From Paenibacillus harenae DSM 16969 (lineage in GTDB: Bacteria > Bacillota > Bacilli > Paenibacillales > Paenibacillaceae), in assembly GCF_000422465.1 (NCBI RefSeq), contig NZ_KE383842.1, positions 165,040 to 229,039 of the forward strand: a DNA stretch of 64,000 nt, read 5' to 3'. Under the pieces are notes generated by a model, which searched no databases, was not told the DNA's origin, and saw only the letters and a program-made list of their open reading frames with translations. Made by a program: the position numbers and the translations under genes. How positions within the stretch are numbered: the stretch's first letter is position 1; each line of letters opens with the position of its first letter. This document shows, in pieces, positions 1,291 through 15,415 of this stretch.

Positions 1291-1338
1291 CCCGCAGGCG
1301 TGCGGTTTCGGGTATAATGGTAGTTGAGGTGAGAAGAA

Positions 1339-2193: not shown

Positions 2194-2323
2194 CCGGAAC
2201 GGATCGACATGCACAGACAAATACTCCCCGCATATGATGTGGTGTTACGAACAATAGGCGGATGTCTACTCGCGAATACGGAAGCGATGCAGACAAAGGC
2301 TTGTGCGGGGAGGGGCTTTTCGA

Positions 2324-3052
2324 TTGTTCGCGCATGTTGCATCATTGCTAGTGCTTGCTTTTGCTGTTAGTTTGGATGGGTTCGGGGTAGGCGTTACTTA
2401 CGGTCTGCGGCGCATTCGCATCCCGTTCCTTTCGGTGTTTATTATCGCGTGCTGCTCGGGTATCATTATTTTTCTATCGATGCAGGTTGGCGGATGGCTG
2501 ACCGGCTTCCTGTCCGAGTTCGCGGCTCGGCTAATCGGCGCGTGCGTACTTATCGCGATTGGCGGCTGGGCGCTGTTCCAACTGAAGAGGGGAAAGCAGA
2601 CCCTCGAAGAGAGCGAAGCCGCCGAAACCGGTCTGGCAGGAAGCGTAAGCGGGAGTGGAGCGGTAACCGGCCCAGCAGCAGACAAAGGTCAAGGGGAGCT
2701 TGCCAATGCGGCGCTTATCGTCATGGTAGAGCTGAAGCGGTTAGGTTTAGTTATTCAGATTCTGCGTACGCCGCAGGCCGCCGATGTCGATAAATCAGGC
2801 ACGATCTCGGCTTCAGAAGCCGTAATGCTGGGCGTAGCGTTATCGCTTGACGCATTCGGCGCGGGTCTTGGCGCAGCCATGATCGGCTTGCCGGCATTGC
2901 TTACCTCGCTGACGATCGCTGCGGCGAGCGCCATGTTTCTCGTAGGCGGCATCCGCTTCGGATTCCGGTTCTCTACGTGGAAAGGGATGCACGCATTATC
3001 TTTGCTGCCAGGCATATTATTGATCATGATGGGAATCATGAAGCTGTTATAA
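2324..3052 (+). CDS. ytaF: YtaF-like sporulation membrane protein
   Basis: A 242-aa MntP/YtaF family protein with two hydrophobic halves of three helices. Each half carries a conserved Ser-Leu-Asp motif (AVSLDGFGVGV near the start, ALSLDAFGAG in the second half). Between them is an EF-hand-like loop DVDKSGTISASE, a usual feature of YtaF. I chose the TTG at 2324 because GGGGAGGGG lies about 6 nt upstream and it puts the first helix at the N-terminus; a GTG at 2303 would add seven residues. YtaF is a sporulation-associated protein of unclear biochemical role; its place between mutM and coaE is conserved. Confidence 0.85.
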   Translation: MFAHVASLLVLAFAVSLDGFGVGVTYGLRRIRIPFLSVFIIACCSGIIIFLSMQVGGWLTGFLSEFAARLIGACVLIAIGGWALFQLKRGKQTLEESEAAETGLAGSVSGSGAVTGPAADKGQGELANAALIVMVELKRLGLVIQILRTPQAADVDKSGTISASEAVMLGVALSLDAFGAGLGAAMIGLPALLTSLTIAAASAMFLVGGIRFGFRFSTWKGMHALSLLPGILLIMMGIMKLL

Positions 3053-3068
3053 TTCAGAGGTGAATAGG

Positions 3069-3665
3069 ATGAAAATCGGATTAACCGGCGGTATTGCCAG
3101 CGGTAAAAGCACAGTCGCCCGCATGCTCGCGGCGCGCGGCGCGCTGCTGGTCGATGCCGATCAAGTCGCCAGGGAGGTCGTTCTTCCCGGCGAGCCGGCA
3201 CTAGGGGCAATCGCCTCTACGTTCGGACAAGCCGTTCTGGAGGCTGACGGGTCTTTGAACCGCAAGGCGCTGGGCGAAATCGTCTTTCGGGATAAAACAT
3301 TACTCGCGAAGCTTGAGGCCATCACTCATCCTGCCATACGGGAGCGCATGCAGCGGCGGATACATAGCTATGAAGAGCAGGATCCGAACCGTTTAATCGT
3401 AGCGGATATTCCTCTCTTGTTCGAGACGGGGCAGCAGAACCTCTATGAAGGCGTAATGGTTGTGTACGTGCCTGCAGATTTGCAGCGTACCCGCTTGATG
3501 GAAAGGGATGCAGTATCGAAGGAAGAGGCGGAGCGCAGAATTTCTTTGCAGATGGATATCGAACGGAAGAAGCTTCTGGCCGATTGGGTGATTGATAACG
3601 GCGGAACGCTTGCGGAAACGGAGCAGCAGATTGATGATTTTTGGAAAAGCAAGTGTCTGCCATGA
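3069..3665 (+). CDS. coaE: Dephospho-CoA kinase
   Basis: A 198-aa enzyme that phosphorylates the 3'-hydroxyl of dephospho-CoA, the last step of coenzyme A synthesis. The P-loop GGIASGKS is at residues 7-14, followed by the DADQVAREVV segment typical of CoaE and a lid/core region RLMERDAVSKEEAERRI. The ATG at 3069 has GAGGTG about 5 nt upstream; a GTG at 3060 is an in-frame alternative. The stop overlaps the next start (ATGA), indicating translational coupling to the transglycosylase. Confidence 0.96.
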   Translation: MKIGLTGGIASGKSTVARMLAARGALLVDADQVAREVVLPGEPALGAIASTFGQAVLEADGSLNRKALGEIVFRDKTLLAKLEAITHPAIRERMQRRIHSYEEQDPNRLIVADIPLLFETGQQNLYEGVMVVYVPADLQRTRLMERDAVSKEEAERRISLQMDIERKKLLADWVIDNGGTLAETEQQIDDFWKSKCLP

Positions 3666-4228
3666 GGATATTAGTTAAAAAGAGAGTGTTATTGATCCTG
3701 CTGCTCGGATTGATTACTATATTATTTCTTAAATCCGACTGGCTGGCCGAATGGATGTATCCGGTTCATTACAAGCAGGATATACGCGCAAGCGCAGGCA
3801 ATTACGGCATCGAGCCTCATTTGGTCGCGGCCATCATACGAAGTGAAACCAATTACCGGACTGGCCGAGATTCGAAGAAGGGCGCTTTGGGATTAATGCA
3901 GATCATGCCGAATACGGCTGATTGGGTCATTCAGAAAGCGGGATTTACCGGGGTGACGGAGGACATGCTCAGGTATCGGGCCGATGTCAGCATCGAGGTA
4001 GGCTCCTGGTATTTAAATTCATTAACGCAGCAATTCGGGCAAAATAAAATTGCCGCCATAGCCGCATACAACGCAGGTCCGGGGAATGTTCAAAAGTGGC
4101 TTCATTCGGGCGTGTGGGATGGGAAAATGGAAACCGTCAAACAAATTCCATTCGGCGAGACCAGACACTATGTACAGCGGGTCATTTATTATTATAATAA
4201 GTACAAGGATTTGTATCCAAGCTTCTAA
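3662..4228 (+). CDS. Membrane-anchored lytic transglycosylase (SLT domain)
   Basis: A 188-aa protein with one N-terminal membrane segment (about residues 8-24) and an extracellular Slt70-like domain that cleaves peptidoglycan glycan strands. The catalytic Glu62 lies in IIRSETNY, followed by GALGLMQIMP and AAYNAGPGNV, the standard motifs of family 1 transglycosylases. The ATG at 3662 overlaps the coaE stop as ATGA. A homologue directly after coaE is common in Bacillaceae and Paenibacillaceae. A role in growth or sporulation cannot be decided from sequence. Confidence 0.93.
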   Translation: MRILVKKRVLLILLLGLITILFLKSDWLAEWMYPVHYKQDIRASAGNYGIEPHLVAAIIRSETNYRTGRDSKKGALGLMQIMPNTADWVIQKAGFTGVTEDMLRYRADVSIEVGSWYLNSLTQQFGQNKIAAIAAYNAGPGNVQKWLHSGVWDGKMETVKQIPFGETRHYVQRVIYYYNKYKDLYPSF

Positions 4229-4260
4229 ATTATTGATAACCAGCGAAATAAAAACGAGCC

Positions 4261-4300
4261 TTGGAGGCCCGCCGCTTCATGGACGGGCCCAGCCAAAGCG
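4261..4300. terminator. GC-rich hairpin between convergent genes
   Basis: GGCCCG..CGGGCC arms around a short loop lie between the convergent transglycosylase and SASP genes. On the minus strand a T run (GTTTTT) follows some 15 nt after the stem. It is a plausible but imperfect terminator. Confidence 0.4.
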
Positions 4301-4329
4301 TCTGTTATTCATACAAGCTTAATGAATCA

Positions 4330-4548
4330 TTATTTGAATTGACCAGCAAGGGATTGCTCGGCAATTTGAACGAGGCGGCGGGTAATAGAACCCCCGATGG
4401 AGCCTGCGTCTCTAGTCGCCATGTTGCCGTAGTATCCGTCTTGCGGAATCGCGATGCCTAGCTCTTGAGCCACTTCGAATTTCATTTGGTCAAGTGCTGC
4501 AGTCGCTTGCGGTACAACCAATTGGTTACTGCTACGATTTTGAGCCAT
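4330..4548 (-). CDS. Alpha/beta-type small acid-soluble spore protein
   Basis: A 72-aa SASP that coats and protects spore DNA and is degraded by the Gpr protease in germination. The conserved KFEVAQELG segment holds the Gpr cleavage site, and the C-terminal DNA-binding part GSITRRLVQIAEQSL is characteristic. The start is supported by a perfect AAGGAGGTG eight bases upstream. It is a single gene convergent to the coaE operon and should be expressed in the forespore (sigma-G), though I did not identify a clear promoter. Confidence 0.95.
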   Translation of the reverse strand: MAQNRSSNQLVVPQATAALDQMKFEVAQELGIAIPQDGYYGNMATRDAGSIGGSITRRLVQIAEQSLAGQFK

Positions 4549-4694
4549 TGTTGTTCACCTCCTTGCGGTTGGTAAAGGTATTATGTGCAAAAAATCAAAG
4601 GCTATAACAGGGATTACATGGAAAATTTATTTTTTTGAGAAAAAGTTTTTTTTAAGGCTATAAAACCGATAAAGGAAGGAGGCAAGTCAGCCGC

Positions 4695-5177
4695 ATGAAA
4701 TGTCCCTATTGCGACAATGCAGGAACGAAGGTTCTAGATTCCAGACCGGCAAACGAAAACAAATCGATTCGCCGCCGCCGTGAATGCGAGAGCTGCAGCC
4801 GGCGCTTTACAACCTTTGAAATGATTGAGGAAACGCCTCTGATTGTCATCAAGAAGGACGGCAGCCGCGAGGAATTCAGCCGTGACAAAATATTGCGCGG
4901 ATTGATTCGGGCGTGCGAGAAACGTCCCGTTCCCGTGGAACGGTTGGAGGTTATCGTATCCGAGGTTGAGAAAGAGCTTCGCACGACGGCTCTTGCCGAG
5001 GTGGACAGCAGCGAAATCGGCGGTCTCGTCATGAATGAACTATACCCTGTCGATGAGGTCGCGTATGTCCGATTCGCATCCGTATACCGGCAATTCAAAG
5101 ATATCGATATGTTCATGAAGGAGCTTAATCATCTTCTATCCAAGCATCCGCTCAACAGCATGATAGATAAGGATTGA
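4695..5177 (+). CDS. nrdR: Transcriptional repressor NrdR
   Basis: A 160-aa repressor of ribonucleotide reductase genes that senses ATP/dATP. The zinc ribbon cysteines are C3, C6, C31 and C34, with the basic RRRR stretch before the second pair. The ATP-cone domain runs from about residue 46 to 136 ([19 protein letters not shown]). Length and motif spacing are canonical. A GGAAGGAGG site precedes the ATG. The tRNA-Ala gene begins 43 bases after its stop. Confidence 0.97.
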
Positions 5178-5220
5178 CAGATTTGACGACAATATGCTAT
5201 TATCAATCTTGTCGCCATTT

Positions 5221-5296
5221 GGGGCCTTAGCTCAGCTGGGAGAGCGCATCGCTGGCAGCGATGAGGTCAGGGGTTCGATCCCCCTAGGCTCCACCA
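5221..5296 (+). tRNA. tRNA-Ala (anticodon GGC)
   Basis: A 76-nt cloverleaf with encoded CCA. Acceptor GGGGCCT pairs with AGGCTCC, the D-stem is GCTC/GAGC, the anticodon stem CATCG/CGATG holds loop CTGGCAG (anticodon GGC), and the T-arm is AGGGG-TTCGATC-CCCCT. Pairing is complete apart from one G-U in the acceptor stem. It is the intact reference copy for several 3' fragments found over the next 7.6 kb. Confidence 0.98.
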
Positions 5297-5308
5297 AACA
5301 CAAATATC

Positions 5309-5335
5309 AAACACGCCAAATAAGGCGTGTTTTTG
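5309..5335 (+). terminator. Terminator after tRNA-Ala
   Basis: ACACGCC and GGCGTGT form a 7-bp stem around AAATAA, followed by TTTTT. The hairpin can be extended outward, because GGCTCCACCAAAC at the tRNA 3' end is complementary to GTTTGGTGGAGCC beyond it. A near copy lies at about 7812-7840. Confidence 0.85.
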
Positions 5336-5340
5336 CGTTT

Positions 5341-5532
5341 GGTGGAGCCCGACAAGGGGGCGAACCCCGGGGTTCAGTCCGCGCGGACGTAGCGAATGCG
5401 GAGGAGCACGGCGTCTGAATCTACCGCTAAAAGTCCTCGTCGAGTAAGCTTCGTCAGCCATTCGATCAGGATTCGGACATCCCATAATGGAAAGACGAGC
5501 TTGTGCGAGTCATATCCCCCTAGGCTCCACCA
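5341..5532. repeat. tRNA-ended palindromic repeat, copy 1
   Basis: A non-coding repeat of about 190 bp. Its left end (GGTGGAGCC...GGGGGCGAACCCC) resembles the reverse complement of the tRNA-Ala 3' end, and its right end (TCCCCCTAGGCTCCACCA) is a direct copy of it. Bases 5362-5532 match 7624-7794 at 169 of 171 positions with no gaps. The open frames inside lack ribosome sites and are not credible genes. It could be a MITE-like element or a structured RNA left over from duplication of the tRNA region. Confidence 0.8.
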
Positions 5533-5785
5533 AAACAATACATCCAACACAACCTATATTTGCGATTTTTTTTGTGGAATGTCTAGAAACCCTAAAGTTT
5601 CACCTATGCGGATGTCCCTTTATCCGTTGAACGAATAAATCGAAAAACGATCAGGAATGGACCGCGAATCTTCCAGTGAGGGAGGAATATACGTTTTGTC
5701 TGTTGGTCTGATAAAAATAAAAAAATTTATAATTTATATATTTACAATCAAAGGCTTCTTACATATAATTGAAGTGGAGGTGATC
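5533..5785. other. AT-rich intergenic region before the TetR gene
   Basis: No gene is seen here. The stretch is clearly more AT-rich than its surroundings (for example 5708-5770) and leads into the ribosome site GTGGAGGTGATC of the TetR gene. It marks the left side of an accessory segment. Confidence 0.5.
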
Positions 5786-6421
5786 ATGATCGCACGAGGG
5801 TTCACGGAAGATAAAAAAGAAGCCATTCGTATGCTTCTAATCAAAGAAGGAAAACGATTGTTTGGTAAGTTCGGTTTGAAGAAAACAAGCATTGCCCAAT
5901 TGACGGAAGCGGCTGGTATATCGCCTGCAGCCTTTTACAAATTTTTCGAGTCCAAGGAAGAGCTATATTTTTTCATCTTTGAACATGAAGCTCTGGATTT
6001 TCAAAAAAAATTATTGGCTCAGCTCAACAGCGCTGAATCTCAATCGATGACCATGACATTTCAAAATATGTTTATATCCATCATGGATCAGTACAAACAC
6101 GATCCTTTTATGGAACAGTTATTTCGTGGGGATGATTTCAATCAAGTACTTCTCACGGTTTCAAAGCAGGATATTGATAAGCATGTACTATTGGGTTATA
6201 AACACTTTTCCCCTGTAATTGAAAACCTGCAGAAGGAAGGCAAATTGATTTCTACCAACCCGAAAGTTTTAATCACGATTATGCAAATAATCTTTTTGGT
6301 AAATGAACATAGGAAGAATTTCGATTCAGAACTATTCGATAAAGCGATGAAACTGATGGCTGGATGGATCGCGCAAGGCTTTACTCATAATAAATTTGAT
6401 ATCTGGGGTGAACCGGAATGA
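5786..6421 (+). CDS. TetR family transcriptional regulator
   Basis: A 211-aa regulator. The N-terminal helix-turn-helix (about residues 34-57, KKTSIAQLTEAAGISPAAFYKFF) is typical of TetR; the C-terminal ligand-binding part is not assignable. The ATG at 5786 has GGAGGTG at the right distance; longer upstream frames would cover AT-rich non-coding sequence. Its stop overlaps the start of the next gene (ATGA). Composition is more AT-rich than the housekeeping genes, and it lies between an intact and a partial tRNA-Ala, which suggests acquisition. Confidence 0.9.
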   Translation: MIARGFTEDKKEAIRMLLIKEGKRLFGKFGLKKTSIAQLTEAAGISPAAFYKFFESKEELYFFIFEHEALDFQKKLLAQLNSAESQSMTMTFQNMFISIMDQYKHDPFMEQLFRGDDFNQVLLTVSKQDIDKHVLLGYKHFSPVIENLQKEGKLISTNPKVLITIMQIIFLVNEHRKNFDSELFDKAMKLMAGWIAQGFTHNKFDIWGEPE

Positions 6422-6777
6422 GCGGTGTGTGGGAGTATTTTACTCCGGAGCAACAGGACTTTTTATCAAGGAGAATCGAACAGATTAGGCAGAGTTATGG
6501 TCCTGAAGAAATGAAAAGACTTAGAGTGGAATCAAATAAGCTCATCTCAAAATTACGTTCAGCTTACGAATCCGGACTGCCGTCTGATGCTCTAGAGGTT
6601 GTGGCTTTTGCCAAACGATTAGCCGAATCTCAGGCGATGTTTAACGGTGGTGATCGTGAGCTTGAGAAAGCCGTAGAACGTTTCCACGTTGAAAACCCAG
6701 ATGTAGAGGATCATGGAATCGACTTGAAGTTGTACAGATATATTGAGCAAGCGAAATCGTACTGTTCGGCAGAGTAA
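6418..6777 (+). CDS. TipAS-like antibiotic-recognition domain protein
   Basis: A 119-aa all-helical protein. The pattern YESGLPSDALEVVAFAKRLAESQAMF followed by a short helix and ERFHVENPDVEDHG resembles the C-terminal drug-binding domain of TipA-type MerR regulators, which binds thiopeptides. No DNA-binding domain is attached. It overlaps the TetR gene by 4 bp, so the two may work together as sensor and repressor. The TipAS assignment rests on pattern only. Confidence 0.6.
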   Translation: MSGVWEYFTPEQQDFLSRRIEQIRQSYGPEEMKRLRVESNKLISKLRSAYESGLPSDALEVVAFAKRLAESQAMFNGGDRELEKAVERFHVENPDVEDHGIDLKLYRYIEQAKSYCSAE

Positions 6778-6805
6778 TCTTCAATCTAATCATTCAGGAG
6801 ATAAT

Positions 6806-7243
6806 ATGGAAAATTCAAATCCAAATGGGTTACCCGACATTTGTAAGGTTCGAATTCTTGATGATCCAATTGATAAAGTATGGAAGGTTATCTCGACATC
6901 TGAAGGAATCGCTCTATGGTTTTACCCGACGAATTATTTTCAACCGGTTCTAGGATGTGAGTTTTTTGCAGAAATGGAGCTACCGCAAGGCAGAACAGCC
7001 TGCAAAGTTACTCAGGTTGATCCTCCTTATAATTTATCATACGAATTAGGAAACGATTGGAGTTGGTCGTTCAAATTGAAAGACCTTCAGGGCCGAACAG
7101 AATTAACATTCGTATGGTCGGGATGGAATGAGAAGAAGAGGACGGAGTTCGGAATGCCTCATACGAAGCTACATCCCCAATTAATGAGCGGCACGAATGT
7201 GTTGATGAAAGCATTGTCCAGATCAATAAAGAAATTGGATTAA
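6806..7243 (+). CDS. SRPBCC / AHSA1-like protein
   Basis: A 145-aa protein with the START-like fold of the AHSA1 family: DDPIDKVWKVISTSEGIALWF near the N-terminus, then a run of beta strands and a long C-terminal helix with MSGTNVLMKALSRSI. Such proteins bind small hydrophobic ligands; the substrate is unknown. The ATG at 6806 follows CAGGAG. It is 28 bp after the TipAS-like gene and probably in the same operon. Confidence 0.75.
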   Translation: MENSNPNGLPDICKVRILDDPIDKVWKVISTSEGIALWFYPTNYFQPVLGCEFFAEMELPQGRTACKVTQVDPPYNLSYELGNDWSWSFKLKDLQGRTELTFVWSGWNEKKRTEFGMPHTKLHPQLMSGTNVLMKALSRSIKKLD

Positions 7244-7268
7244 CGATTTATAACCTGGAGGGATGAAC

Positions 7269-7484
7269 TTGCAGCATGTTGTCATTCAAGTCATTGGGAT
7301 GTCCTGCGGGTATTGCGTCAAATCTGTAGAGAATGCTCTGAATAACATTGGAGCACGAGGGCGTGTTAACCTTAAAGAAGGATCCGTAAATGTCACGTAC
7401 GATGAAATCCGGCTTAAACTTGAAACGATTACGAATGCGATTGAGGATCTTGGTTATGACATAGACACTGGTTTCGATAGTTAA
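7269..7484 (+). CDS. Heavy-metal-associated (CopZ-like) protein
   Basis: A 71-aa ferredoxin-like metal-binding protein. The GMSCGYC motif (CxxC, near residue 10) would bind Cu(I) or a similar ion, and the rest shows the alternating beta-alpha pattern of HMA domains. The TTG at 7269 is six bases after GGAGGG; the ATG at 7263 directly abuts that site and is less likely. No copper ATPase is nearby, so its partner is unknown. It ends just before a partial tRNA-Ala. Confidence 0.8.
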   Translation: MQHVVIQVIGMSCGYCVKSVENALNNIGARGRVNLKEGSVNVTYDEIRLKLETITNAIEDLGYDIDTGFDS

Positions 7485-7496
7485 ACAGGTAATGGC

Positions 7497-7555
7497 GGGA
7501 GAGCGCATCGCTGGCAACGATGAGGTCAGGGGTTCGATCCCCCTAGGCTCCACCA
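7497..7555 (+). pseudogene. tRNA-Ala 3' fragment
   Basis: These 59 bases match the 3' part of the tRNA-Ala at 5221-5296 with one difference (loop G to A). The acceptor 5' strand and most of the D-arm are missing, so it cannot be a functional tRNA. The break point and orientation resemble an attachment site left by insertion at a tRNA 3' end. Confidence 0.85.
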
Positions 7556-7569
7556 AAACAATAAATTCA

Positions 7570-7598
7570 ACTACTTCATCCGGAGTGGTTTTTTTATT
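7570..7598 (+). terminator. Terminator after tRNA fragment
   Basis: ACTACT and AGTGGT form a short stem around TCATCCGG, followed by a run of seven T. It sits where the terminator of an intact tRNA would be. Confidence 0.65.
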
Positions 7599-7603
7599 GT
7601 TTT

Positions 7604-7794
7604 GATGGGGCCCATAAGGGGGTGAACCCCGGGGTTCAGTCCGCGCGGACGTAGCGAATGCGGAGGAGCACGGCGTCTGAATCTACCGCTAAAAGTCCTC
7701 GTCGAGTAAGCTTCGTCAGCTATTCGATCAGGATTCGGACATCCCATAATGGAAAGACGAGCTTGTGCGAGTTATATCCCCCTAGGCTCCACCA
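7604..7794. repeat. tRNA-ended palindromic repeat, copy 2
   Basis: Second copy of the repeat at 5341-5532. From 7624 to 7794 it differs at only two of 171 positions. The right end again is a tRNA-Ala 3' copy, and it runs into a copy of the tRNA terminator region (7795-7840). Confidence 0.8.
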
Positions 7795-7840
7795 AACACA
7801 AATATCAAACACGCCAAATAAAGCGTGTTTTTTTGCGTTT

Positions 7841-8018
7841 GGCGGAGCCCGACAAGGGGGCAGACCGCGCGCACGAAGCGATAGCGTAGGAGCACGGCAT
7901 CGAAATTTACCGCTAAGATCGCCATCGTGGGCTATGCTTCGTCAGCAAGTGAGATCAGGCTTCGGACATCCACTCCTGCGAAGCCGAGCAGCGCGAGGCG
8001 GAGCGAAAGGCTCCACCA
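7841..8018. repeat. Diverged copy of the tRNA-ended repeat
   Basis: Starts with GGCGGAGCCCGACAAGGGGG and ends with AGGCTCCACCA, as in the other copies. The interior keeps blocks such as AGGAGCACGGC, TACCGCTAAGA and CTTCGTCAGC but is otherwise diverged. A further weak remnant (GAAGCACGGCGTTTAGATC, TATCGCTGAAAGTCC) lies at about 8035-8150. Together 7485-8240 is a gene-free block of repeat material. Confidence 0.65.
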
Positions 8019-8240
8019 TGGACTTGGCCTAGAGGTGACAAGCCCGAAAGGTTCGCCCACACGGACAGGGTGGATGATAAGGCAAAATGAAAAACATCCC
8101 GTAGAAGCACGGCGTTTAGATCTATCGCTGAAAGTCCACAGAGTTATTTTTATGCCATTTTATATTTATTCGATTGGTGAAATAAGGTATGATCTTGGTG
8201 GTATTCGATTGATTGCGATTCAACGGTGGTGGTGAATAGA

Positions 8241-9923
8241 ATGTACGAGGATAAAAAGCTGCATTACAAGGACTTGCTTATACTGAAAACAATTGCAGAA
8301 ACGTTGAACCAGAACCATGACATGAAGCTGATGCTTCAAAGCACGCTGGAGAAGCTGCTCGAATTGACCGGACTTAAGACGGGGTGGATCTTTTTGGCGG
8401 ACGAAGAGCCGATCTATCACCATGCGGCGGACCATAACTTACCTCCAGCGCTTGCACGGAATGATAAAGAACCGATGCGGTGCGAAGTATGCTTCTGTCT
8501 GAAGCTATACTGGAAAGGCTCGCTTAATCAAGCCGTAAACATCATCGAATGCGAGCGCCTGCATAATTCCGTTATTTATTCACGCGGCGACACAAATAAA
8601 CTCACCCATCATGCCACAGTTCCGCTAACGATATGCGGGGAACGCTTCGGTCTTCTGAATGTCGGTTCGCCCGGCAAGGAGCATTTCAGCGACGAAGAGC
8701 TTGCCCTTCTTGAAGGGGTTGCGTTTCAGATCGGTACCGCAGTGGAACGAACAAGACTGCTGGAGCAAAAGGAGAAGCTCGCGGTCGACAATATTGCGCG
8801 TTACATCGTGGATTATTACGCCAGCACGAATGAAGTGACCAGACAGATCTGGACGATCAATAATTTAAACGAACTGTTATTAAACGTTGTCACAAACATC
8901 GGAACGTATTTCGACTGGCCGACGGTGGCCATTGCCATACATCAAGGCAATCGCTTAACGTTACGCGCCCTCTATGACAACGATAGCTCCAAATTATTAA
9001 ATGATTCCGTACTCCTGCAGCCAAAGGAATCTTCGGATGATATTATCCATAAGGCTTATACGGAACATAAAGTATGTCAGAGCAAGGATGAACCTTTCAC
9101 TTTTGCCGCACTCCATCAAAGCGAAAGTATGTTTTCGATCGCAATACCTCTAAAAAAACAAGAGCCCTTATTAAGAAACGAACCGCTCGGCATACTTCTC
9201 ATCGGAAGAGAATCTTCAATGTTCAGCGAGCTGGAGATTGAAATATTGACGATGTTGGCGGATCATATTTCGTGGGCAATGGAAAGAATTCGCTTGTATG
9301 ACGAATGGCAATACTTGCTGTTGTCGGAAGAACGGAACAGGCTTGCGCTCGATCTGCACGACTCCGTCAACCAGAAGCTGTTTTCACTTTCGTTGACAGC
9401 GCAAGGCATCAAAGAAATGATACAAGACCATAATCCGCTCGTCATAGATGGGATAAATGACATTCAACTGTTATCGCAAGAGACGTTGTCCGAAATGCGT
9501 ACGTTAATATGGCAGCTTCGCCCTTATAGTGCCGAAAAAGGAATGATTGCTTCTTTAAAGGAATACGCCGAAAAAATCGGATTGCACGTAACTTTACAGA
9601 TGAGGGATGACGTGCAATTCCCTGAGAAAGTAGAAGAAATTTTATGGCGAATCGGTCAGGAAGCATTAAATAATGTCAGTAAGCATGCTAGGACAAACCG
9701 CGCAACGATCAAAATTCAGTCGATCGAAGATCACATTCAAATGAGCGTAACGGACCATGGCTGCGGCTTTGTACCTGAGCAGATAGAGCAGAACTCGGCA
9801 AGGCTCGGCATTATCGGCATGAAAGAAAGAGTGTCGCAAATTAACGGAAGCTTAAAAATCAGCAGCATGGAAGGCAAAGGAACAATCATTTCTGTCACGG
9901 TGCCGCTCTCGAGGGAGAAATAA
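8241..9923 (+). CDS. GAF-domain sensor histidine kinase (NarL partner type)
   Basis: A 560-aa soluble kinase with no membrane segments. Two GAF-like domains (about residues 25-185 and 205-360) precede a HisKA_3 dimerisation region with phospho-acceptor His373 in LDLHDSVNQKL, and a HATPase_c domain (about 465-558; N-box EALNNVSKHA, G-box GIIGMKERV). Cysteines in CEVCFCLK of the first GAF might sense redox or bind a cofactor, but this is a guess. The ATG at 8241 follows GGTGGTGGTGA. The response regulator starts one base after its stop. Confidence 0.92.
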   Translation: MYEDKKLHYKDLLILKTIAETLNQNHDMKLMLQSTLEKLLELTGLKTGWIFLADEEPIYHHAADHNLPPALARNDKEPMRCEVCFCLKLYWKGSLNQAVNIIECERLHNSVIYSRGDTNKLTHHATVPLTICGERFGLLNVGSPGKEHFSDEELALLEGVAFQIGTAVERTRLLEQKEKLAVDNIARYIVDYYASTNEVTRQIWTINNLNELLLNVVTNIGTYFDWPTVAIAIHQGNRLTLRALYDNDSSKLLNDSVLLQPKESSDDIIHKAYTEHKVCQSKDEPFTFAALHQSESMFSIAIPLKKQEPLLRNEPLGILLIGRESSMFSELEIEILTMLADHISWAMERIRLYDEWQYLLLSEERNRLALDLHDSVNQKLFSLSLTAQGIKEMIQDHNPLVIDGINDIQLLSQETLSEMRTLIWQLRPYSAEKGMIASLKEYAEKIGLHVTLQMRDDVQFPEKVEEILWRIGQEALNNVSKHARTNRATIKIQSIEDHIQMSVTDHGCGFVPEQIEQNSARLGIIGMKERVSQINGSLKISSMEGKGTIISVTVPLSREK

Positions 9924-9924
9924 A

Positions 9925-10566
9925 ATGAAGACGATAAAGGTTCTGATCGTAGACGATCATTTGGTTGTGCTAAGAGGACTGCGGTTTTTCTTGCAAACAC
10001 AGGCCGTAATTGAAATTGTCGGCCAAGCCCATAACGGGGAAGAGGCTTTGCAGCAAGTGCAAGCGTTGCAACCCGATATTGTGCTCATGGATTTGATCAT
10101 GCCGGGATTGAGCGGAATCGAAGCCACAAGGAAGATAACGGAAAATTATCCTCAAGTAAAAGTCATTATACTTTCCAGCTACTCGGATCGCGATTCCGTT
10201 CTTCAAGCCATCAAAGCAGGAGCCATTGGCTACCAGCTTAAGGATGTGAAACCCGAAGTGTTGATCGAATCCATTCAAGCCGCCATGGACGGCGTAAAAA
10301 CGCTGCATCCGCAAGCAACACATCAACTGATGTCCCACGTTGTCTCGGAGAAAGAGGAAGGGAAGAGCATTGCTATTCTAACCGCGAAGGAAAAGGTGGT
10401 CCTGAAGCATATCACCTTGGGTCAAAGCAATAAGGAAATTGCGGCCGAGCTTCATATTTCCGAGAAAACGGTCAAGACGCATGTTACTCACATTTTAGCC
10501 AAATTAGAGATGCAGGATCGTACGCAAGCCGCACTGTTCGCGACCAAAAATAATTGGTTCGTTTAA
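9925..10566 (+). CDS. NarL/LuxR-family response regulator
   Basis: A 213-aa regulator with receiver domain (phospho-acceptor Asp56 in LMDLIMPGLSG, Lys in YQLKDVKPE) and C-terminal LuxR helix-turn-helix (about 148-205: LTAKEKVVLKHITLGQSNKEIA). It is the cognate partner of the upstream kinase, with which it is tightly linked. Targets are unknown; the NmrA-like gene 147 bp downstream, after a terminator-like hairpin, is a candidate. Confidence 0.94.
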   Translation: MKTIKVLIVDDHLVVLRGLRFFLQTQAVIEIVGQAHNGEEALQQVQALQPDIVLMDLIMPGLSGIEATRKITENYPQVKVIILSSYSDRDSVLQAIKAGAIGYQLKDVKPEVLIESIQAAMDGVKTLHPQATHQLMSHVVSEKEEGKSIAILTAKEKVVLKHITLGQSNKEIAAELHISEKTVKTHVTHILAKLEMQDRTQAALFATKNNWFV

Positions 10567-10581
10567 TCATTGGTCGTAGTC

Positions 10582-10607
10582 AAGGTCTTATCTCCGGATA
10601 AGACCTT
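10582..10607 (+). terminator. Hairpin after the two-component operon
   Basis: A perfect 11-bp stem AAGGTCTTATC/GATAAGACCTT with a 4-nt loop. The T tract after it is weak (ATTCTT). Confidence 0.7.
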
Positions 10608-10713
10608 ATTCTTATGCGTTCATTAGACGAATGCAGGGCGTAATAGTTTGAGGATTGAGGTAAATTGAAATGAGTTCGCTAATCTATTTATTCGATTTGA
10701 GGAGGAAGTACAA

Positions 10714-11535
10714 ATGACTATTTTAGTAACGGGAGCAACCGGAAATGTAGGACGGCATATCGTTGATCAGCTTATTCGATCGGGCGCTCGTGTTCGAGCC
10801 CTTACGCGCAATCCTGCAAGCGCGAATCTGCCGCAATCCGTGGAAGTCGTATACGGGGATCTTACCGATCCGGACACTATGGTTGAGGCGCTCCATGGCG
10901 CTACCGCCATGCACTTGATCACGTTCAACAGCGTCGACTCCGCTCCGCTGCACACCGGGCCTGAAATCGTAGAACTTGCAACGAAAGCAGGCATACGAAA
11001 AGTCACGCTATTGTGGAGCGGCACGAAAGGGCCGGTAGAAGAGGCGGTAGAAGCAAGCAGTCTGGAATGGACACATCTCCAGCCGGACGTTGAATTCATG
11101 TCCAATACGCTGGCATGGGCGGACTCCATCCGGTCGGAAGGTGTGGTTAGGCAGCTAAACGGCCAAGCATTAAATGCTATGATTCACGAGGCGGACATTG
11201 GAAGTGTCGCTGCGACCGTGCTATTAGGAGAAGGCCACGCTTTCAAGAGCTATTCGTTGACCGGACCTGAAGTGCTATCCGCATATGATAAGATTCGAAT
11301 AATCAGCTCAGAACTTGGCCGGGATCTAAGGTTCATTGAATTGTCCGAAGAAGAAGAGCGTGCCCGGATGCGCCAGTCCGGCGTTCAGGAAGAGATGATC
11401 GACTATGTCGTCGGATGGTACGCTAACCCACCTAAGGCAGCGTCTCGCGTGCTTCCGCTCGTCGAGGAAATTACCGGCCTTCCGGCTCGAACTTTTGCGC
11501 AATGGATAGCTGAAAACAAAACGAAATTTTTATAA
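10714..11535 (+). CDS. NmrA-like NAD(P)-binding protein
   Basis: A 273-aa atypical short-chain dehydrogenase/NmrA family protein. GATGNVG at residues 7-13 is the nucleotide-binding loop, followed by GDLTDPDTMVEAL, the usual acidic strand region. The canonical YxxxK pair is not evident, so it may act as a redox sensor or an NAD(P)H:quinone-type reductase rather than a classical SDR. A GAGGAGG site precedes the ATG. Single gene between hairpins. Confidence 0.85.
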   Translation: MTILVTGATGNVGRHIVDQLIRSGARVRALTRNPASANLPQSVEVVYGDLTDPDTMVEALHGATAMHLITFNSVDSAPLHTGPEIVELATKAGIRKVTLLWSGTKGPVEEAVEASSLEWTHLQPDVEFMSNTLAWADSIRSEGVVRQLNGQALNAMIHEADIGSVAATVLLGEGHAFKSYSLTGPEVLSAYDKIRIISSELGRDLRFIELSEEEERARMRQSGVQEEMIDYVVGWYANPPKAASRVLPLVEEITGLPARTFAQWIAENKTKFL

Positions 11536-11827
11536 TTCGATCATACGCAAAGGGATAGGACATGATTCTCCATTTGCTCGAGCGATGTAACGGGGAGCCA
11601 TGTATCGAGGAAATCCATATCCGGTGGGATGGGGCACATTGGGCAAGAATAGCATTTTTCCCATAGGGGCGAGGTCTGGGGGAGATTGACGGAATATCCT
11701 GAAATTCTCGGGACGGATCGGGGATTAGTGAGTATCACTGGCAACGATGAGTTATGGATTCAATTACACAAACAACCGAGCCTGTCCAGGAATCGGTTGT
11801 TTGCGATAGATATTCTTGACCACAAGT
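11536..11827. other. Intergenic remnant region with tRNA-like scrap and hairpin
   Basis: No credible gene is seen. Bases 11738-11751 (CTGGCAACGATGAG) equal the anticodon arm of the tRNA fragment at 7497-7555, including its variant A. A hairpin with arms CAAACAACCGA/TCGGTTGTTTG follows at 11769-11803. The same hairpin arms recur at 12868-12901 after another tRNA fragment. A 67-residue minus-strand frame at 11541-11744 lacks a ribosome site. Confidence 0.5.
11769..11803. terminator. Hairpin, copy 1 of a repeated terminator-like stem
   Basis: An 11-bp perfect stem CAAACAACCGA/TCGGTTGTTTG with a 13-nt loop. The arms are identical to those at 12868-12901 while the loops differ. Confidence 0.65.
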
Positions 11828-12391
11828 TTACACAATGGATTCCAATTTGGCAGCCAGTTGGCAGATAGGCTTCTCTACACGGTTGTGCAGCCGATACAGG
11901 AACGAAGGTCGCGGTTGTTCACTCAGCAGTTTCTTCACCGCACCCAAGTCATGCAGTTCACCCAAGCGAGCGGATAGCATGCGCGGCGTCACCTGCTGAA
12001 GAGCATGCCTTATATCTTGAAAGTGTTCGTGGTCAAAATGGAGTGCAAGCAAGACGGGCATATTCCAGGCTTTCGCAGACAATCTACCGTATCCAAGTTC
12101 GTTCTCAGCCGCTTTTACCGTTTCCGCCGCTGCTTGAAACAGTCGTCCTTCTTCCGTCAGCACGTATTCGGGTAATGCGGGATGGCGTCGTTCATAGGGG
12201 GACAGATGCTGGAGCAGTCCGCTTTCCGTCATCCGTTTTAGATTTTCGCTTAAGCGCGCAGGGGAAATTTGCAAATGTCGCTGCATAGGTGTAAAGCGCC
12301 CCCTGCATTTCTCCAACGCTAGCAAGATCGGTACCGTCCACTGCCCCGATAGCTCTTGAGATAGCTGGAGTACACGGCTTTCGGTACTCAG
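11828..12391 (-). CDS. HxlR/MarR-like regulator with two winged helices, atypical start
   Basis: The protein shows two winged-helix units in tandem: WTVPILLALEKCRGRF..SENLKRMTESGLL, and later MPVLLALHFDHEHF..LSARLGELHDLGAV. HxlR proteins normally have one. Coding-like sequence extends upstream of the first normal start (TTG at 12325), which would cut off the first helix. The natural boundary is CTG at 12391, overlapping the stop of the upstream VOC gene (CTGA) with GAGGA about ten bases before; this gives 187 aa. Either CTG is used by coupling or the ATG was lost. Function: DNA-binding regulator, target unknown. Confidence 0.65.
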   Translation of the reverse strand: MSTESRVLQLSQELSGQWTVPILLALEKCRGRFTPMQRHLQISPARLSENLKRMTESGLLQHLSPYERRHPALPEYVLTEEGRLFQAAAETVKAAENELGYGRLSAKAWNMPVLLALHFDHEHFQDIRHALQQVTPRMLSARLGELHDLGAVKKLLSEQPRPSFLYRLHNRVEKPICQLAAKLESIV

Positions 12392-12750
12392 AGCGGTCTC
12401 AATTCCTCGGATAACATCAGGCTGTGTCCGTCAGGGTCCGCAAATGTTGCCAGCTTCACCATGTCCGGTATGGTTTCTATCTCCCCAATAAACATTACGC
12501 CATTTTGTTCCAAAGATTTCCTGGCTGCCTCGATATCATAGACCTCAAATACGGTCGAGGAGGTGGAAGGAATAACCTCTTCTGCTTCCGAAAATCCAAT
12601 TATACAACCTTCGGTCGTTGTATTCATCATGGCCATTCCAGAGGCGGAGTCGTGGAATACGAGATCAAACCCCAATTTTTTCTTATAGAAATCAATCGTG
12701 TCGTTCAAGCTTTTTACGTTATACCATATCGTTACGCCTGGTTTAAACAT
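12388..12750 (-). CDS. VOC family protein (glyoxalase/bleomycin-resistance fold)
   Basis: A 120-aa protein with the paired beta-alpha-beta-beta-beta modules of the vicinal oxygen chelate superfamily (TIWYNVKSLNDTIDFYKKKLGF at the N-terminus, FADPDGHSLML near the C-terminus). It could bind or modify a small toxic compound. The ATG at 12750 has GGAGGTG upstream. It overlaps the HxlR-like gene by 4 bp, suggesting an operon of regulator and effector. Confidence 0.85.
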   Translation of the reverse strand: MFKPGVTIWYNVKSLNDTIDFYKKKLGFDLVFHDSASGMAMMNTTTEGCIIGFSEAEEVIPSTSSTVFEVYDIEAARKSLEQNGVMFIGEIETIPDMVKLATFADPDGHSLMLSEELRPL

Positions 12751-12825
12751 AGAGCACCTCCAGATTTTTAATATCGATATTATATCAAGTATATTTTCGG
12801 TAGTAAAGCGGCCTATGAAAATTTT

Positions 12826-12858
12826 CGATGAGGTCAGGGGTTCGATCCCCCTAGGCTC
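12826..12858 (+). pseudogene. tRNA-Ala 3' fragment
   Basis: 33 bases identical to the variable loop, T-arm and part of the acceptor of the tRNA-Ala at 5221-5296, ending before CCA. It lies just upstream of the VOC gene on the opposite strand. Confidence 0.85.
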
Positions 12859-12867
12859 AATAATATG

Positions 12868-12901
12868 CAAACAACCGATCCTAACTAGGGTCGGTTGTTT
12901 G
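12868..12901. terminator. Hairpin, copy 2 of a repeated terminator-like stem
   Basis: Same arms as at 11769-11803 (CAAACAACCGA/TCGGTTGTTTG), placed ten bases after a tRNA-Ala fragment. The following stretch to 12970 (TTGGAGTCCCACCAGG...CAAGGCTCCAA...GCGAATGCGG) may be a heavily diverged copy of the tRNA-ended repeat. Confidence 0.6.
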
Positions 12902-12989
12902 TATTTTGGAGTCCCACCAGGAGGTGTTTGGGAGATGAATCCTCAAGGCTCCAAACAGGCGAATGCGGAATATGCTGTAGTTCGGATTG

Positions 12990-13934
12990 TCAAATTCGAC
13001 CGGGAGGTGTCGGTACGGAACGGTTGATCATCGATTCGAAGACACGTTCGAAACCGTCATTTCCGAAACCTCTGGCTACCATCTGCTCAGTGACGGTCTG
13101 GATGGGCAGCAGCCAATCGGCCGGCACGCCCAATTCCCGGCTGCTCTTGACGATGTTATCCAGCGCAAGCTTGTTGACCGTCATGTTGGATACATCTGTA
13201 GTATAATTGCCTTCATCCAGGATGCGGGCGGCTTCCGGACTTGTCAGCATAGGCACAATCAAGTGCTGCAGCCAATTGCTTGCATAGGGCAAGAACTTCT
13301 CCGCGGAAATATTGGCCGTTCGCAGCAGCGCATGAGCGTGAAAATAACTGTACCAAGCGCCGTACAACATCGTAAGCATTGCCAAATCAAACAGCAACGC
13401 CACACCTGTATCTTCGCTCAGATAGGTCGTACCTCCGCCCATCACTTGTAGCACCGACTGATACGCTTCAAAGAGTTCCTTCCTGCCGCCATAAAGTATA
13501 AGCGCGTTAGGACTTCCGATCATCGGGGGAACCGCCATGATCGCCCCATCCAAATACTCGATGCCTTTCTCCTTAGCCCACATATCCAGGAGACGCGCTT
13601 CATCCGGCGTCCCGGTGGTCAAGTTGACGATGACGCGGCCGGTGAGTTCTGTCTCCAAGGGCATAAGCGTGCTTCTTACAACTTCATATGTCGACAAGCA
13701 GACCACAATCATACCGCTTGCCGCAATGGCCCCGGCTACTGTCTCAGCTCGAACCGCCCCGTTGCCGACAAGCCGGTCGGCTTTGTCCGCGGATCGATTC
13801 CAGACGGTCACAGGATGGCCGGCCGCCAGATATGCAGCCGCCAGCGCCTGTCCCATATTACCAAGCCCAATGACGGTTACTGGGATTAAATCGGTTTCCT
13901 TAACTAAAGCTTTGATCAACGAATTTTCGTTCAT
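12990..13934 (-). CDS. NAD(P)-dependent oxidoreductase, imine-reductase/6PGDH-like
   Basis: A 314-aa protein of the beta-hydroxyacid dehydrogenase/imine reductase group. The Rossmann motif VIGLGNMG is at residues 21-28, with WNRS following the second strand as expected for NADPH binding. The helical C-terminal half (YAPYSYFHAHAL-like region after residue 180) is of the type used for dimerisation in imine reductases. The ATG at 13934 follows AAGGAGAT. It is divergent from a MerR regulator 89 bp away, which probably controls it. Confidence 0.85.
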   Translation of the reverse strand: MNENSLIKALVKETDLIPVTVIGLGNMGQALAAAYLAAGHPVTVWNRSADKADRLVGNGAVRAETVAGAIAASGMIVVCLSTYEVVRSTLMPLETELTGRVIVNLTTGTPDEARLLDMWAKEKGIEYLDGAIMAVPPMIGSPNALILYGGRKELFEAYQSVLQVMGGGTTYLSEDTGVALLFDLAMLTMLYGAWYSYFHAHALLRTANISAEKFLPYASNWLQHLIVPMLTSPEAARILDEGNYTTDVSNMTVNKLALDNIVKSSRELGVPADWLLPIQTVTEQMVARGFGNDGFERVFESMINRSVPTPPGRI

Positions 13935-14023
13935 TTTTTCATCTCCTTGATATTGAACTCTTTCTTTCCAGAGAACAACGACATATAATTGGAATAAATT
14001 CTCGTGCGAGGAGGCCTCAAAAA

Positions 14024-14404
14024 ATGAAAATAAGCGAATTGTCCCGTCTGACAAATGTCAGCCCGCGCGCAATACGACATTATGAAGAAAAAGGTCTGCT
14101 TACGGCAGACAGACTTGACAACGACTACCGCGAATTCAGCGAATCTGCCGTCGAACGGGTCCGTTCGATTCAGCTCTACTTGAAGCTGGGATTTACGACG
14201 GATGAAATACGGAGCTTGTTCCAATGCGAGGTCGCGTCGCCGGACGATTATGAATACTGCGAAGAAATGCAGGAAATCTACGAAGAAAAACTGCGTAAGG
14301 TGAAAAGCCAGATCGATTCCATGCTGCAATTGAAGCGGCTGCTGGAGCGGCAGGTTGCGCTGACGGTTGCCGGCAAAAAGCAGAACCTGCGGATATCCGT
14401 CTAA
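14024..14404 (+). CDS. MerR family transcriptional regulator
   Basis: A 126-aa regulator with the N-terminal MerR helix-turn-helix (MKISELSRLTNVSPRAIRHYEEKGLL) and a C-terminal coiled coil (about residues 80-118). There is a CEV and a YCEEM cysteine but no clear metal site. It faces the oxidoreductase gene across 89 bp, the usual layout for a MerR activator and its target. A GAGGAGG site precedes the ATG. Confidence 0.92.
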   Translation: MKISELSRLTNVSPRAIRHYEEKGLLTADRLDNDYREFSESAVERVRSIQLYLKLGFTTDEIRSLFQCEVASPDDYEYCEEMQEIYEEKLRKVKSQIDSMLQLKRLLERQVALTVAGKKQNLRISV

Positions 14405-14455
14405 CGTGCATAAGCATCTTGGCAAGGACACGACGAACGTCTGCGCCAAAGTTCC

Positions 14456-15214
14456 TTATTCCACGGAAAGGCCTTGTCCTAGACCGCCGTCTACGGACAA
14501 TTCGGCGCCTGTTGTGAAGGTGGCCTCGAAGGCGAGAAAAAGCACTGCCTTGGCCACCTCCTCCGGCGAGCCGTGACGTTTCATTGGCGTCATCTGGTCG
14601 CCAAGCTCCTCAAAGGCGGCCCGTTCCGATTCCGAGAATCCTGCCACACCCATCGTCGGCGTATGGATGAAACCGGGTCTGACCACATTGACGCGAACTC
14701 CCCGCGGCAGCAGTTCAGCCGCAAAACCTGAGGCAAGCGAACGCAGCGCCGCTTTTGAAGCGCCGTAAACGCTCATTCCCGGAGTCCCGCCTTCATCTGC
14801 CACGGATGACGTAAATATGATCGATCCGCCTTCCCGAATGAGCGGAGCCAGGCGCTGAACCGTAAAGAATGCCCCTTTCGTGTTAACGTCAAATGTCTTG
14901 TCGTACGAGCTTTCGGTCACTTCCATGAAAGGTTCGAGCAGTGCGATTCCTGCATTGATGTGGACGAAATCGATCTCACCAAACCGTTCGGCGGCGTAAG
15001 CACCTAATGCATCGATATCCGCCATGAGCGACACATCGGATTGAATAACATGCGCCCGTTCTCCCAGTTCCCGTCTCGCTTTTTCTACATTTTCCGGACT
15101 GCGTCCTGTCAGTATGACTTCGGCTCCCCCCGCGAGCAATGATTTGGCCACAGCCATTCCCATACCGTGCGTACCTCCGGTTATAACAGCCTTCTTACCC
15201 TCAAACTCCCTCAT
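14456..15214 (-). CDS. Short-chain dehydrogenase/reductase
   Basis: A 252-aa classical [13 protein letters not shown] (residues 12-21) binds the cofactor, HINAG is the structural motif, Ser in FTSSVAD and Tyr-Lys in YGASK are catalytic, and NVVRPGFI follows. The C-terminal [10 protein letters not shown] is typical of 3-oxoacyl-reductase-like members. Substrate unknown. It points away from the MarR gene; the shared intergenic region holds MarR operator-like sites, but these lie nearer the MarR promoter. Confidence 0.92.
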
Positions 15215-15415
15215 GATCTTGTTCCTCCATGTTCAAAATGTTTGTTTCCAACTTTCTAGTGTCAGTATAAAGGTTCACGCCAGCGTGAAGGTCAATAGCT
15301 AATTTTCCGGTGATAAAAGGGATGTTCCCGTATTCGTATTGATTGGCAGCGTTTATCCACCAATAATCGGTACTTGGCGATCTTGTAACCGTTGAAGGCG
15401 TTGAATATCTTTCGG

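Follow-up and report, generated by a model that had tools for sequence, protein, structure and literature searches.

Tandem tRNA-Ala fragments and a structured repeat at a probable integration hotspot in Paenibacillus harenae

In Dehalococcoides, genomic islands stand in tandem at ssrA, flanked by direct repeats of that RNA gene's 3' end and associated with the serine recombinase DsiB (PMC3146451). The recombinase gene there contains the direct repeat, a conserved motif of 15 bp immediately precedes the repeats, and islands without an integrase are interpreted as cis-mobilizable elements (CIMEs) gained by accretion (PMC3146451). In mycobacteria, sites in tRNA and transfer-messenger RNA (tmRNA) genes are reported to be tied to tyrosine integrases (PMC10654092). 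Here we analyzed a 64,000-nucleotide stretch of the genome of Paenibacillus harenae DSM 16969 (hereafter, the window), in which an intact tRNA-Ala(GGC) gene is followed by an array of 3' fragments of the same gene, short gene cassettes, and copies of a structured repeat that we call R. We find it probable that this array was built by accretion, through several integrases acting at a tRNA-Ala(GGC) hotspot, and then decayed, with R elements interspersed. Among the titles and abstract openings listed by a literature search in a library without most subscription papers, we met no earlier description of R or of the array.

The array is anchored by the intact tRNA-Ala(GGC) at 5221 to 5296 on the plus strand, as are the array features below unless stated otherwise; it scored 62.4 bits against the Rfam tRNA family and was the sole tRNA found when ARAGORN was run over the window. 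Three 3' fragments follow it: one at 7497 to 7555 (tRNA positions 18 to 76; BLAST, 98% over 59 nucleotides [nt]), a degenerate one at 11727 to 11764, and one at 12826 to 12858 (tRNA positions 39 to 71; BLAST, 100% over 33 nt). A first-pass annotation, which had described the tRNA and these fragments, was borne out on each of them, including a 14-nt piece at 11738 that proved to be part of a 39-column match at 11727 to 11764, with a score reached by none of 1,000 mononucleotide shuffles of the stretch from 11536 to 11827. It was also right that a hairpin stands behind each of the three fragments, as one does behind the tRNA, and that those at 11769 and 12868 have the same arms (CAAACAACCGA...TCGGTTGTTTG). 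The array is real and larger than that annotation proposed, which had overlooked R: a 221-nt repeat, 91% identical, lies at 5330 to 5550 and 7592 to 7812, and diverged copies exist in addition. Also unnoticed were a motif resembling a recombinase gene end before the fragment at 7497 to 7555, the start of that fragment at the edge of a D-arm crossover zone, and the right boundary of the array near 12953.

Around the first two R copies the order is the same: gene 3' end, terminator hairpin, inverted copy of the acceptor and T-arm, GGGGTTC, R, and a tail identical to the tRNA 3' end. Behind the intact gene, the terminator hairpin and the inverted copy of the tRNA acceptor and T-arm 3' end occupy 5297 to 5368 (repeat search and sequence reading; fold of -17.0 kcal/mol for 5297 to 5345). 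They are followed by the R1 core at 5369 to 5484, which scored 138.8 bits against a covariance model with R1 itself in its alignment, and by the R1 tail at 5514 to 5532 (tail score, 15/15; sequence reading). Behind the 7497 fragment, a terminator hairpin and inverted tRNA 3' end at 7556 to 7630 (repeat search and fold) lead to the R2 core at 7631 to 7746 (138.4 bits), with a tRNA-Ala tail at 7776 to 7794 (15/15). The first terminator recurs behind R2; behind R1 there is just a weak fold of -3.0 kcal/mol. A diverged R3 core at 7855 to 7973 (covariance model, 70.3 bits) and a partial, degenerate R4 at 8031 to 8144 (nhmmer, 28.9 bits) complete the set.

Nongenic tRNA fragments often start at tRNA position 17 or 18 with the same left flank, and many of them are integration scars. 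From fetched loci, including those of the window's genome, we compiled 58 distinct sites without the tRNA 5' part (at least three of them actually prophage tRNA genes) and called an arm wherever at least 10 of 15 positions of GGTAGTGAAACCGAC matched at one register. The 15-nt arm preceded 24 of the 58 sites at an offset of 24 to 26, with 20 of them at exactly 25. Mononucleotide shuffles yielded a mean of 0.165 and a maximum of 2 in 200 runs, and a single site among 65 that keep the tRNA 5' part has the arm. In Paenibacillus algorifonticola, the arm forms the 3' terminus of a gene for a large serine recombinase of 580 residues (PF00239, PF07508, and PF13408), and the reading frame terminates within the tRNA fragment. 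A prophage of about 58 kb in this genome (G041) splits tRNA-Ala, leaving tRNA positions 1 to 33 at attL and the arm plus tRNA positions 18 to 76 at attR. When its flanks were rejoined, an intact tRNA-Ala was recovered at 73 of 73 bases, which gives the empty attB site for G041 only. The prophage ends bear the inverted half-sites ATGGTAGTGAA and TTCACTACCAT, and the same recombinase occurs at the end of a 57,967-bp IMG/VR contig.

In the three cases from the genus, a complete tRNA-Ala(GGC) with an altered D-loop lies directly upstream of the recombinase on the opposite strand; an 8-kb stretch around a fourth recombinase, from P. piri, held no such extra gene. The extra tRNA-Ala beside three of the four recombinases is likely a substitute for the gene split by integration. 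In one of these genomes (G023), nrdR is followed by the substitute tRNA-Ala and then by the recombinase, and the native tRNA-Ala was not detected in the 12-kb stretch. As a separate observation, the recombinase genes at L099:1905, L173:16206, and L175:10258 carry, besides the arm at their ends, a ATGGTAGT(G/T)AAAC motif at or just before their starts, perhaps an operator or a second attachment site.

Tyrosine integrases are found at the same tRNA. One genome (G015) has a broken tyrosine integrase between the tRNA and R on one side and a fragment starting at tRNA position 32 on the other, in a second (G020) 290 bp separate the tRNA from a near full-length tyrosine integrase match behind it, and a third (G012) has an intact tyrosine integrase within a stretch of about 20 kb between the tRNA and a fragment. 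An IMG/VR contig also carries an integrase-like gene adjoining this tRNA. The presence in relatives' arrays of integrases that target this gene supports the stepwise accretion at one tRNA that the first-pass annotation had put forward. Its statement that the window lacks an integrase or recombinase gene held as well: none of the genome's seven matches to PF00589 (tyrosine integrases) and none of its three to PF07508 (large serine recombinases) fall there.

Between the tRNA and its fragments in the window lie three cassettes. Cassette 1 (5657 to 7484) contains TetR, TipAS-like, SRPBCC/AHSA1, and HMA genes (Pfam; TipAS slightly below the cutoff) and is AT-rich, with a G+C content of 39.7% (5560 to 7480) versus 52.7% for positions 1 to 5177. 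Its DNA recurred in just 1 other of 51 genomes of the genus, as a 65% match over 377 bp. At its right edge, positions 7476 to 7490 match GGTAGTGAAACCGAC at 10 of 15 positions in the common register, exactly the threshold, and are probably the degenerate end of a large serine recombinase gene, one half of an attachment site; the adjoining fragment at 7497 would then be a D-arm integration scar. Cassette 2 (8226 to 11535) encodes a GAF/HisKA_3 histidine kinase, a LuxR-type response regulator, and an NmrA-like protein (Pfam) and had no close match in a protein comparison confined to the fetched loci. Beyond it, the degenerate fragment is followed by a terminator-like hairpin at 11769 to 11803 (repeat search and fold). 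Cassette 3, on the minus strand (11828 to 12750), is a pair of HxlR regulator and VOC/glyoxalase genes (Pfam) that is also found elsewhere in the genus. The fragment at 12826 has no recombinase arm, and a hairpin with a degenerate remnant at 12868 to 12953 (repeat search and sequence reading) forms the right end of the array. Two minus-strand open reading frames (ORFs), at 7248 to 7556 and 12388 to 12870, begin within tRNA fragments (VEPRGIEPLTSS...), and the true start of the VOC gene probably lies downstream of that of the longest ORF.

Array content varies among relatives. Genome G060, with an nrdR 96% identical to that of the window, contains the block at window positions 7478 to 7802 (motif, fragment, terminator, and R) at 87% identity. 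To the left of that block it has a truncated HxlR gene, not HMA, and the HxlR piece matches window positions 11797 to 12076 at 82%. The junction at 7476/7478 is common to both genomes, and the DNA leftward of it differs. In G063, the MerR-SDR flank (window positions 13950 to 15331, 88%) stands directly behind an R end, so the array there spans about 1.5 kb versus 7.7 kb in the window. The first-pass annotation had suggested that relatives be compared for the presence or absence of each cassette; the shared G060 junction agrees with accretion, and no exact empty-site allele was recovered for any window cassette, so that this comparison bears the proposal out only in part. Where the HxlR-VOC region occurs elsewhere in the genus, similarity stops at 12808 to 12823, just before the 12826 fragment, in four of the five matches that reach VOC; the fifth stops at 12761. 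The VOC gene's own upstream sequence extends to about 12810 in three other genomes. Upstream of this gene, TTTTCGGTAGTAAAG (window positions 12790 to 12810) recurs with small changes in three other genomes and resembles a conserved operator-like stretch of the HxlR-VOC pair.

Arrays are also able to carry defense genes, since a cassette between R and a tRNA scar in P. curdlanolyticus (L098:122-2702) encodes ThsA and ThsB of the Thoeris antiphage system. At a tmRNA locus (L232, genome G122), the intervals between the R copies behind the gene contain one gene, a tmRNA 3' fragment and its terminator, and two small genes resembling, by eye, a toxin-antitoxin pair; this is the cassette pattern of the tRNA-Ala arrays at a second RNA gene.

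R itself is a strand-oriented unit of about 115 to 145 nt, or about 215 to 235 nt with its terminator. A DNA search across 51 genomes of the window's genus found it in 39. An exact 20-nt R pattern occurred in 57 stretches of the GTDB set, by title mostly Paenibacillus, with one Cohnella, one Paenibacillaceae bacterium, one titled Bacillus, and two from a Bacilli metagenome assembly; a search of viral contigs with an exact R pattern gave no stretch. In 32 of the 57, R lies within about 150 nt behind a full-length tRNA-Ala match on the same strand; in the others, it lies behind a fragment or farther away, or the stretch has no tRNA-Ala match. Covariance searches, with strict filters that miss weak copies, detected R in 22 of the 38 genera sampled from the order (54 of 149 genomes) and in 3 of 250 genomes drawn from across the class; of these three, one is the window's genome and another belongs to the same family. 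The 29 loci with the best order-wide matches comprised 16 tRNA-Ala, 4 tmRNA, and 9 places with neither gene, while 20 further chosen places, mostly weaker matches, gave 13 tmRNA, 2 tRNA-Ala, and 5 with neither (one repeating an earlier locus). Tandems reach a length of six full copies and one partial copy, in Paenibacillus sp. H1-7 (L109). A single copy in another order (L244, genome G198), about 0.9 kb from a tmRNA, is a possible case of horizontal transfer.

The tail of R follows its host gene. For 121 chosen copies from 68 sources, we scored tails against the 3' ends of both genes with a cutoff of 12/15. With tRNA-Ala upstream (n = 56), 41 tails were of the tRNA-Ala type, none of the tmRNA type, and 15 of neither; with tmRNA upstream (n = 28), 21 were of the tmRNA type, 1 of the tRNA-Ala type, and 6 of neither; with no such gene within 1.5 kb (n = 37), the counts were 16 tRNA-Ala, 5 tmRNA, and 16 neither. 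The tail thus matched the host gene in 62 of the 63 classifiable copies with a gene upstream. Together with gene context, this matching places R inside the T-loop, at about position 56 to 58, and ending in the host gene's own 3' part. Apart from these genes, six dispersed tRNA-Ala 5' parts (G010, L071-L076) are fused directly to R, most with a common upstream region and a T-run behind; the fetched stretches contain no full-length tRNA-Ala match, and these fusions look like stand-alone transcription units.

Several candidate identities for R were discarded. It could have been the 3' end of a minus-strand gene, and an ORF is present in some copies, where one-base indels and second-position changes break the frame. 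Carriage by phages or plasmids was not supported: no record covers 80% of the query, and among the matches listed (20 of 82 phage and 20 of 367 plasmid records), similarity ends within 16 nt of the tRNA end. Neither is R part of the serine-recombinase prophage, as it lies on the host side of attR in G041 and G054. R did not match a known Rfam family: for window positions 4000 to 14500, searched with Rfam 15 at an E value of ≤1, the tRNA gene alone reached its gathering score, with four subthreshold matches over tRNA-like parts, and the loci of six relatives returned tRNA, tmRNA, and a c-di-GMP riboswitch only, with no family for R.

R has a conserved structure. R1 folds as RNA with a z-score of -3.9. 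In a MAFFT alignment of 34 copies (A2), from which the structure was itself derived and for which the shuffles do not keep relatedness, nine pairs had two-sided changes versus 4.8 in shuffles (1 of 500 as high), and the covariation score was 0.175 versus 0.115 (0 of 500 as high). In a second alignment (A3), of 121 copies aligned to the covariance model and hence leaning to the structure, two-sided changes affected all 10 pairs of the long helix, with 301 two-sided cells versus 93.8 ± 7.2 in shuffles. The swap of GUCUGAAUC/GAUUCGGAC for AUUGAAAUG/CAUUUCAAU in this helix is evident in the raw sequences. RNAalifold on 87 full-length copies returned no structure until they were trimmed to the core. 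Among 3,521 paired cells, there were 303 G-U and 78 A-C combinations, an excess that favors RNA from the tRNA strand over DNA or the opposite strand. Taken with the compensatory changes, this pattern suggests that R acts as an RNA.

R has also switched between genes. We built a tree from 115 of the 121 copies (six short ones were dropped), with tail-adjacent columns removed and 101 copies labeled by tail or else by gene. The host label changes at least eight times, at least three of them forced by well-supported branches, compared with about 27 for shuffled labels. The L109 array, at tRNA-Ala, contains four copies of the tRNA-Ala-type group and two that group with tmRNA copies; the nearest relatives of R3 by tree path are three P. 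piri tRNA-Ala copies and then a tmRNA copy. Recombination among tRNA loci, which the first-pass annotation had offered as an alternative, is thus supported in part, in that R is common to tRNA-Ala and tmRNA loci. Within seven of nine arrays compared, same-type copies are 94 to 99% alike, a likeness from which we infer that duplication accounts for most array growth. Copies of different types within an array are about 70 to 75% alike (L109 and L090), and there are exceptions (L233, 61 to 82%; L240, mixed, 75 to 96%). In L109, R forms of 118 and 147 nt alternate.

The 3' side of tRNA-Ala(GGC) is an integration hotspot in the Paenibacillaceae, as integrases of two types and their scars in relatives show. 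On the explanation we favor, the tandem array of the window was built there. Crossover zones would differ, with large serine recombinases acting in the D-arm (tRNA positions of about 18 to 33) and tyrosine integrases near the anticodon loop (about position 32). Every integration would leave a 3' tRNA fragment with its terminator, and the integrase genes would be lost afterward, so that short cargo cassettes remain between scars; each window cassette would have entered by an integrase in this way. R would multiply within the array, most likely by unequal homologous recombination, and would occasionally pass between tRNA-Ala and tmRNA loci.

A number of observations weigh against this explanation. 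The arm is missing from 34 of the 58 fragment sites, which include at least three prophage-borne tRNA genes and several other junction types. In the window, it precedes the 7497 fragment only, at the threshold score, and the window lacks any match to the large serine recombinase profile. What looked like an arm before the 12826 fragment (GGTAGTAAAGCGGCC, 12799 to 12813) is part of the HxlR-VOC cassette, since three other genomes have this sequence upstream of VOC; its loss lowers the odds of the explanation slightly. The recombinase or its relatives are rare, with 3 cases in 51 genus genomes and one more in P. piri, and no window cassette has an exact empty site among the genomes compared. A serine recombinase that splits the tRNA also leaves the intact first tRNA beside a D-arm scar unexplained; a later repair or exchange would be needed, of which none was seen, and our guess is an exchange between strains through the repeated ends. 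As to R, the lean of the A3 alignment toward the structure counts on the same side, 37 of the 121 copies have no tail match, and one copy located behind a tmRNA gene ends in a tail of the tRNA-Ala type. Only 136 columns underlie the tree, with 44 of 112 inner branches open and a bootstrap that had not settled.

Other explanations share some of the same evidence. The array could be mostly the product of homologous recombination and template switching among tRNA ends and palindromic terminators, with little site-specific integration. The close likeness of same-type copies in seven of nine arrays fits this, the alternation of forms in L109 fits block duplication, and the units contain a palindromic acceptor-terminator-acceptor part; we nevertheless regard it as unlikely, given the fixed register of the recombinase arm, the empty site of the prophage, and the integrases at the tRNA. 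If the array were an integron-like system in which the tRNA serves as attI and R as attC, the uniform orientation of the scars, the presence of folded repeats between cassettes, and the lack of a nearby integrase would be accounted for. This reading is highly improbable: relatives' scars carry serine-recombinase ends, R also occurs in tandem with copies too close for an intervening gene, and the window is without any of the genome's PF00589 matches, that profile not being an IntI model.

The nature of R admits further alternatives. R could be just the integrase-binding DNA arm region of a decayed integrative element with a T-loop crossover, conserved through protein binding. It is located where an attachment arm would be, between the gene 3' end and the displaced 3' ends; some arrays have it directly ahead of a tyrosine integrase or a remnant of one; and T-loop crossovers are known for ssrA islands (PMC3146451). 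Two-sided changes in every pair of the long helix and G-U combinations about four times as frequent as A-C make this account doubtful, as do the spread of R through 22 of 38 sampled genera and the lack of any integrase found constantly linked to it. We are equally doubtful that R is an ordinary noncoding RNA gene with a cellular role, placed beside tRNA-Ala or tmRNA and shuffled by concerted evolution. A structure kept across many genera and a tail and orientation tied to the host gene would be expected of such a gene, but the copies behind tRNA-Ala range from none (L060 and L061) to six full and one partial (L109), and 95 of 149 sampled genomes of the order lack R at the threshold used. A more tentative reading, which we hold as possible without favoring it, is that R represents a new kind of mobile noncoding RNA element. 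It would enter the T-loops of tRNA-Ala and tmRNA genes, carry the gene's 3' end so that the gene stays functional, build tandem arrays of tRNA ends, and create landing pads and homology for cassettes.

The left neighbor of the array, nrdR (4695 to 5177, plus strand), is conserved, with tblastn matches of up to 96% identity in relatives, mostly adjoining the same tRNA. On the right, reductive-aminase-like, MerR, and SDR genes (12990 to 15214; Pfam) form a cluster kept together in G005, G023, and G046, which places the array boundary at about 12953. Elsewhere in the genome, BLAST with the tRNA found further fragments on contigs C4, C5, and C7; on C5 (L068:14045-14903), a tRNA-Ala piece covering positions 1 to 59 adjoins genes that by eye resemble IS66 transposition genes.

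Overall, the initial interpretation is partly supported. The locus shows how a bacterial order builds variable gene arrays behind one tRNA, in one relative with an antiphage system, and it adds a case in which the serine recombinase splitting a tRNA gene is accompanied by a likely substitute copy. The known hosts of R are so far two essential RNA genes, at their T-loops, along with dispersed fragments, and its target-matched tails make its mode of movement experimentally answerable.

Among known systems, the Dehalococcoides ssrA array is the closest precedent for accretion. The target there is ssrA, with crossover in the T-loop, whereas here it is tRNA-Ala, with the serine crossover in the D-arm zone; unlike in that description, a substitute tRNA-Ala stands beside three of the four recombinases. 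R is present here, and Dehalococcoides was not searched for it. Prophages with tRNA-targeting tyrosine integrases lie between an intact tRNA and a 3' fragment of it, an arrangement seen at the same gene here, where they represent just one of several integrase types. As in CIME-type islands, tandem cassettes are bounded by direct repeats in tRNA orientation (7497, 11727, and 12826), and related complete elements have integrases, namely, the serine prophage and the tyrosine integrases at the same tRNA in relatives. The ICESt1-related CIMEs of Streptococcus thermophilus, reportedly described by Pavlovic in 2004, differ from this array in host and integrase, and R is not known from them. Finally, bcr1, REP/BIME, and BOX are dispersed structured repeats of bacteria that are, like R, short, noncoding, folded, and multicopy. 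R is distinguished from these by its tie to the T-loops of two genes and by carrying the 3' end of its host gene.

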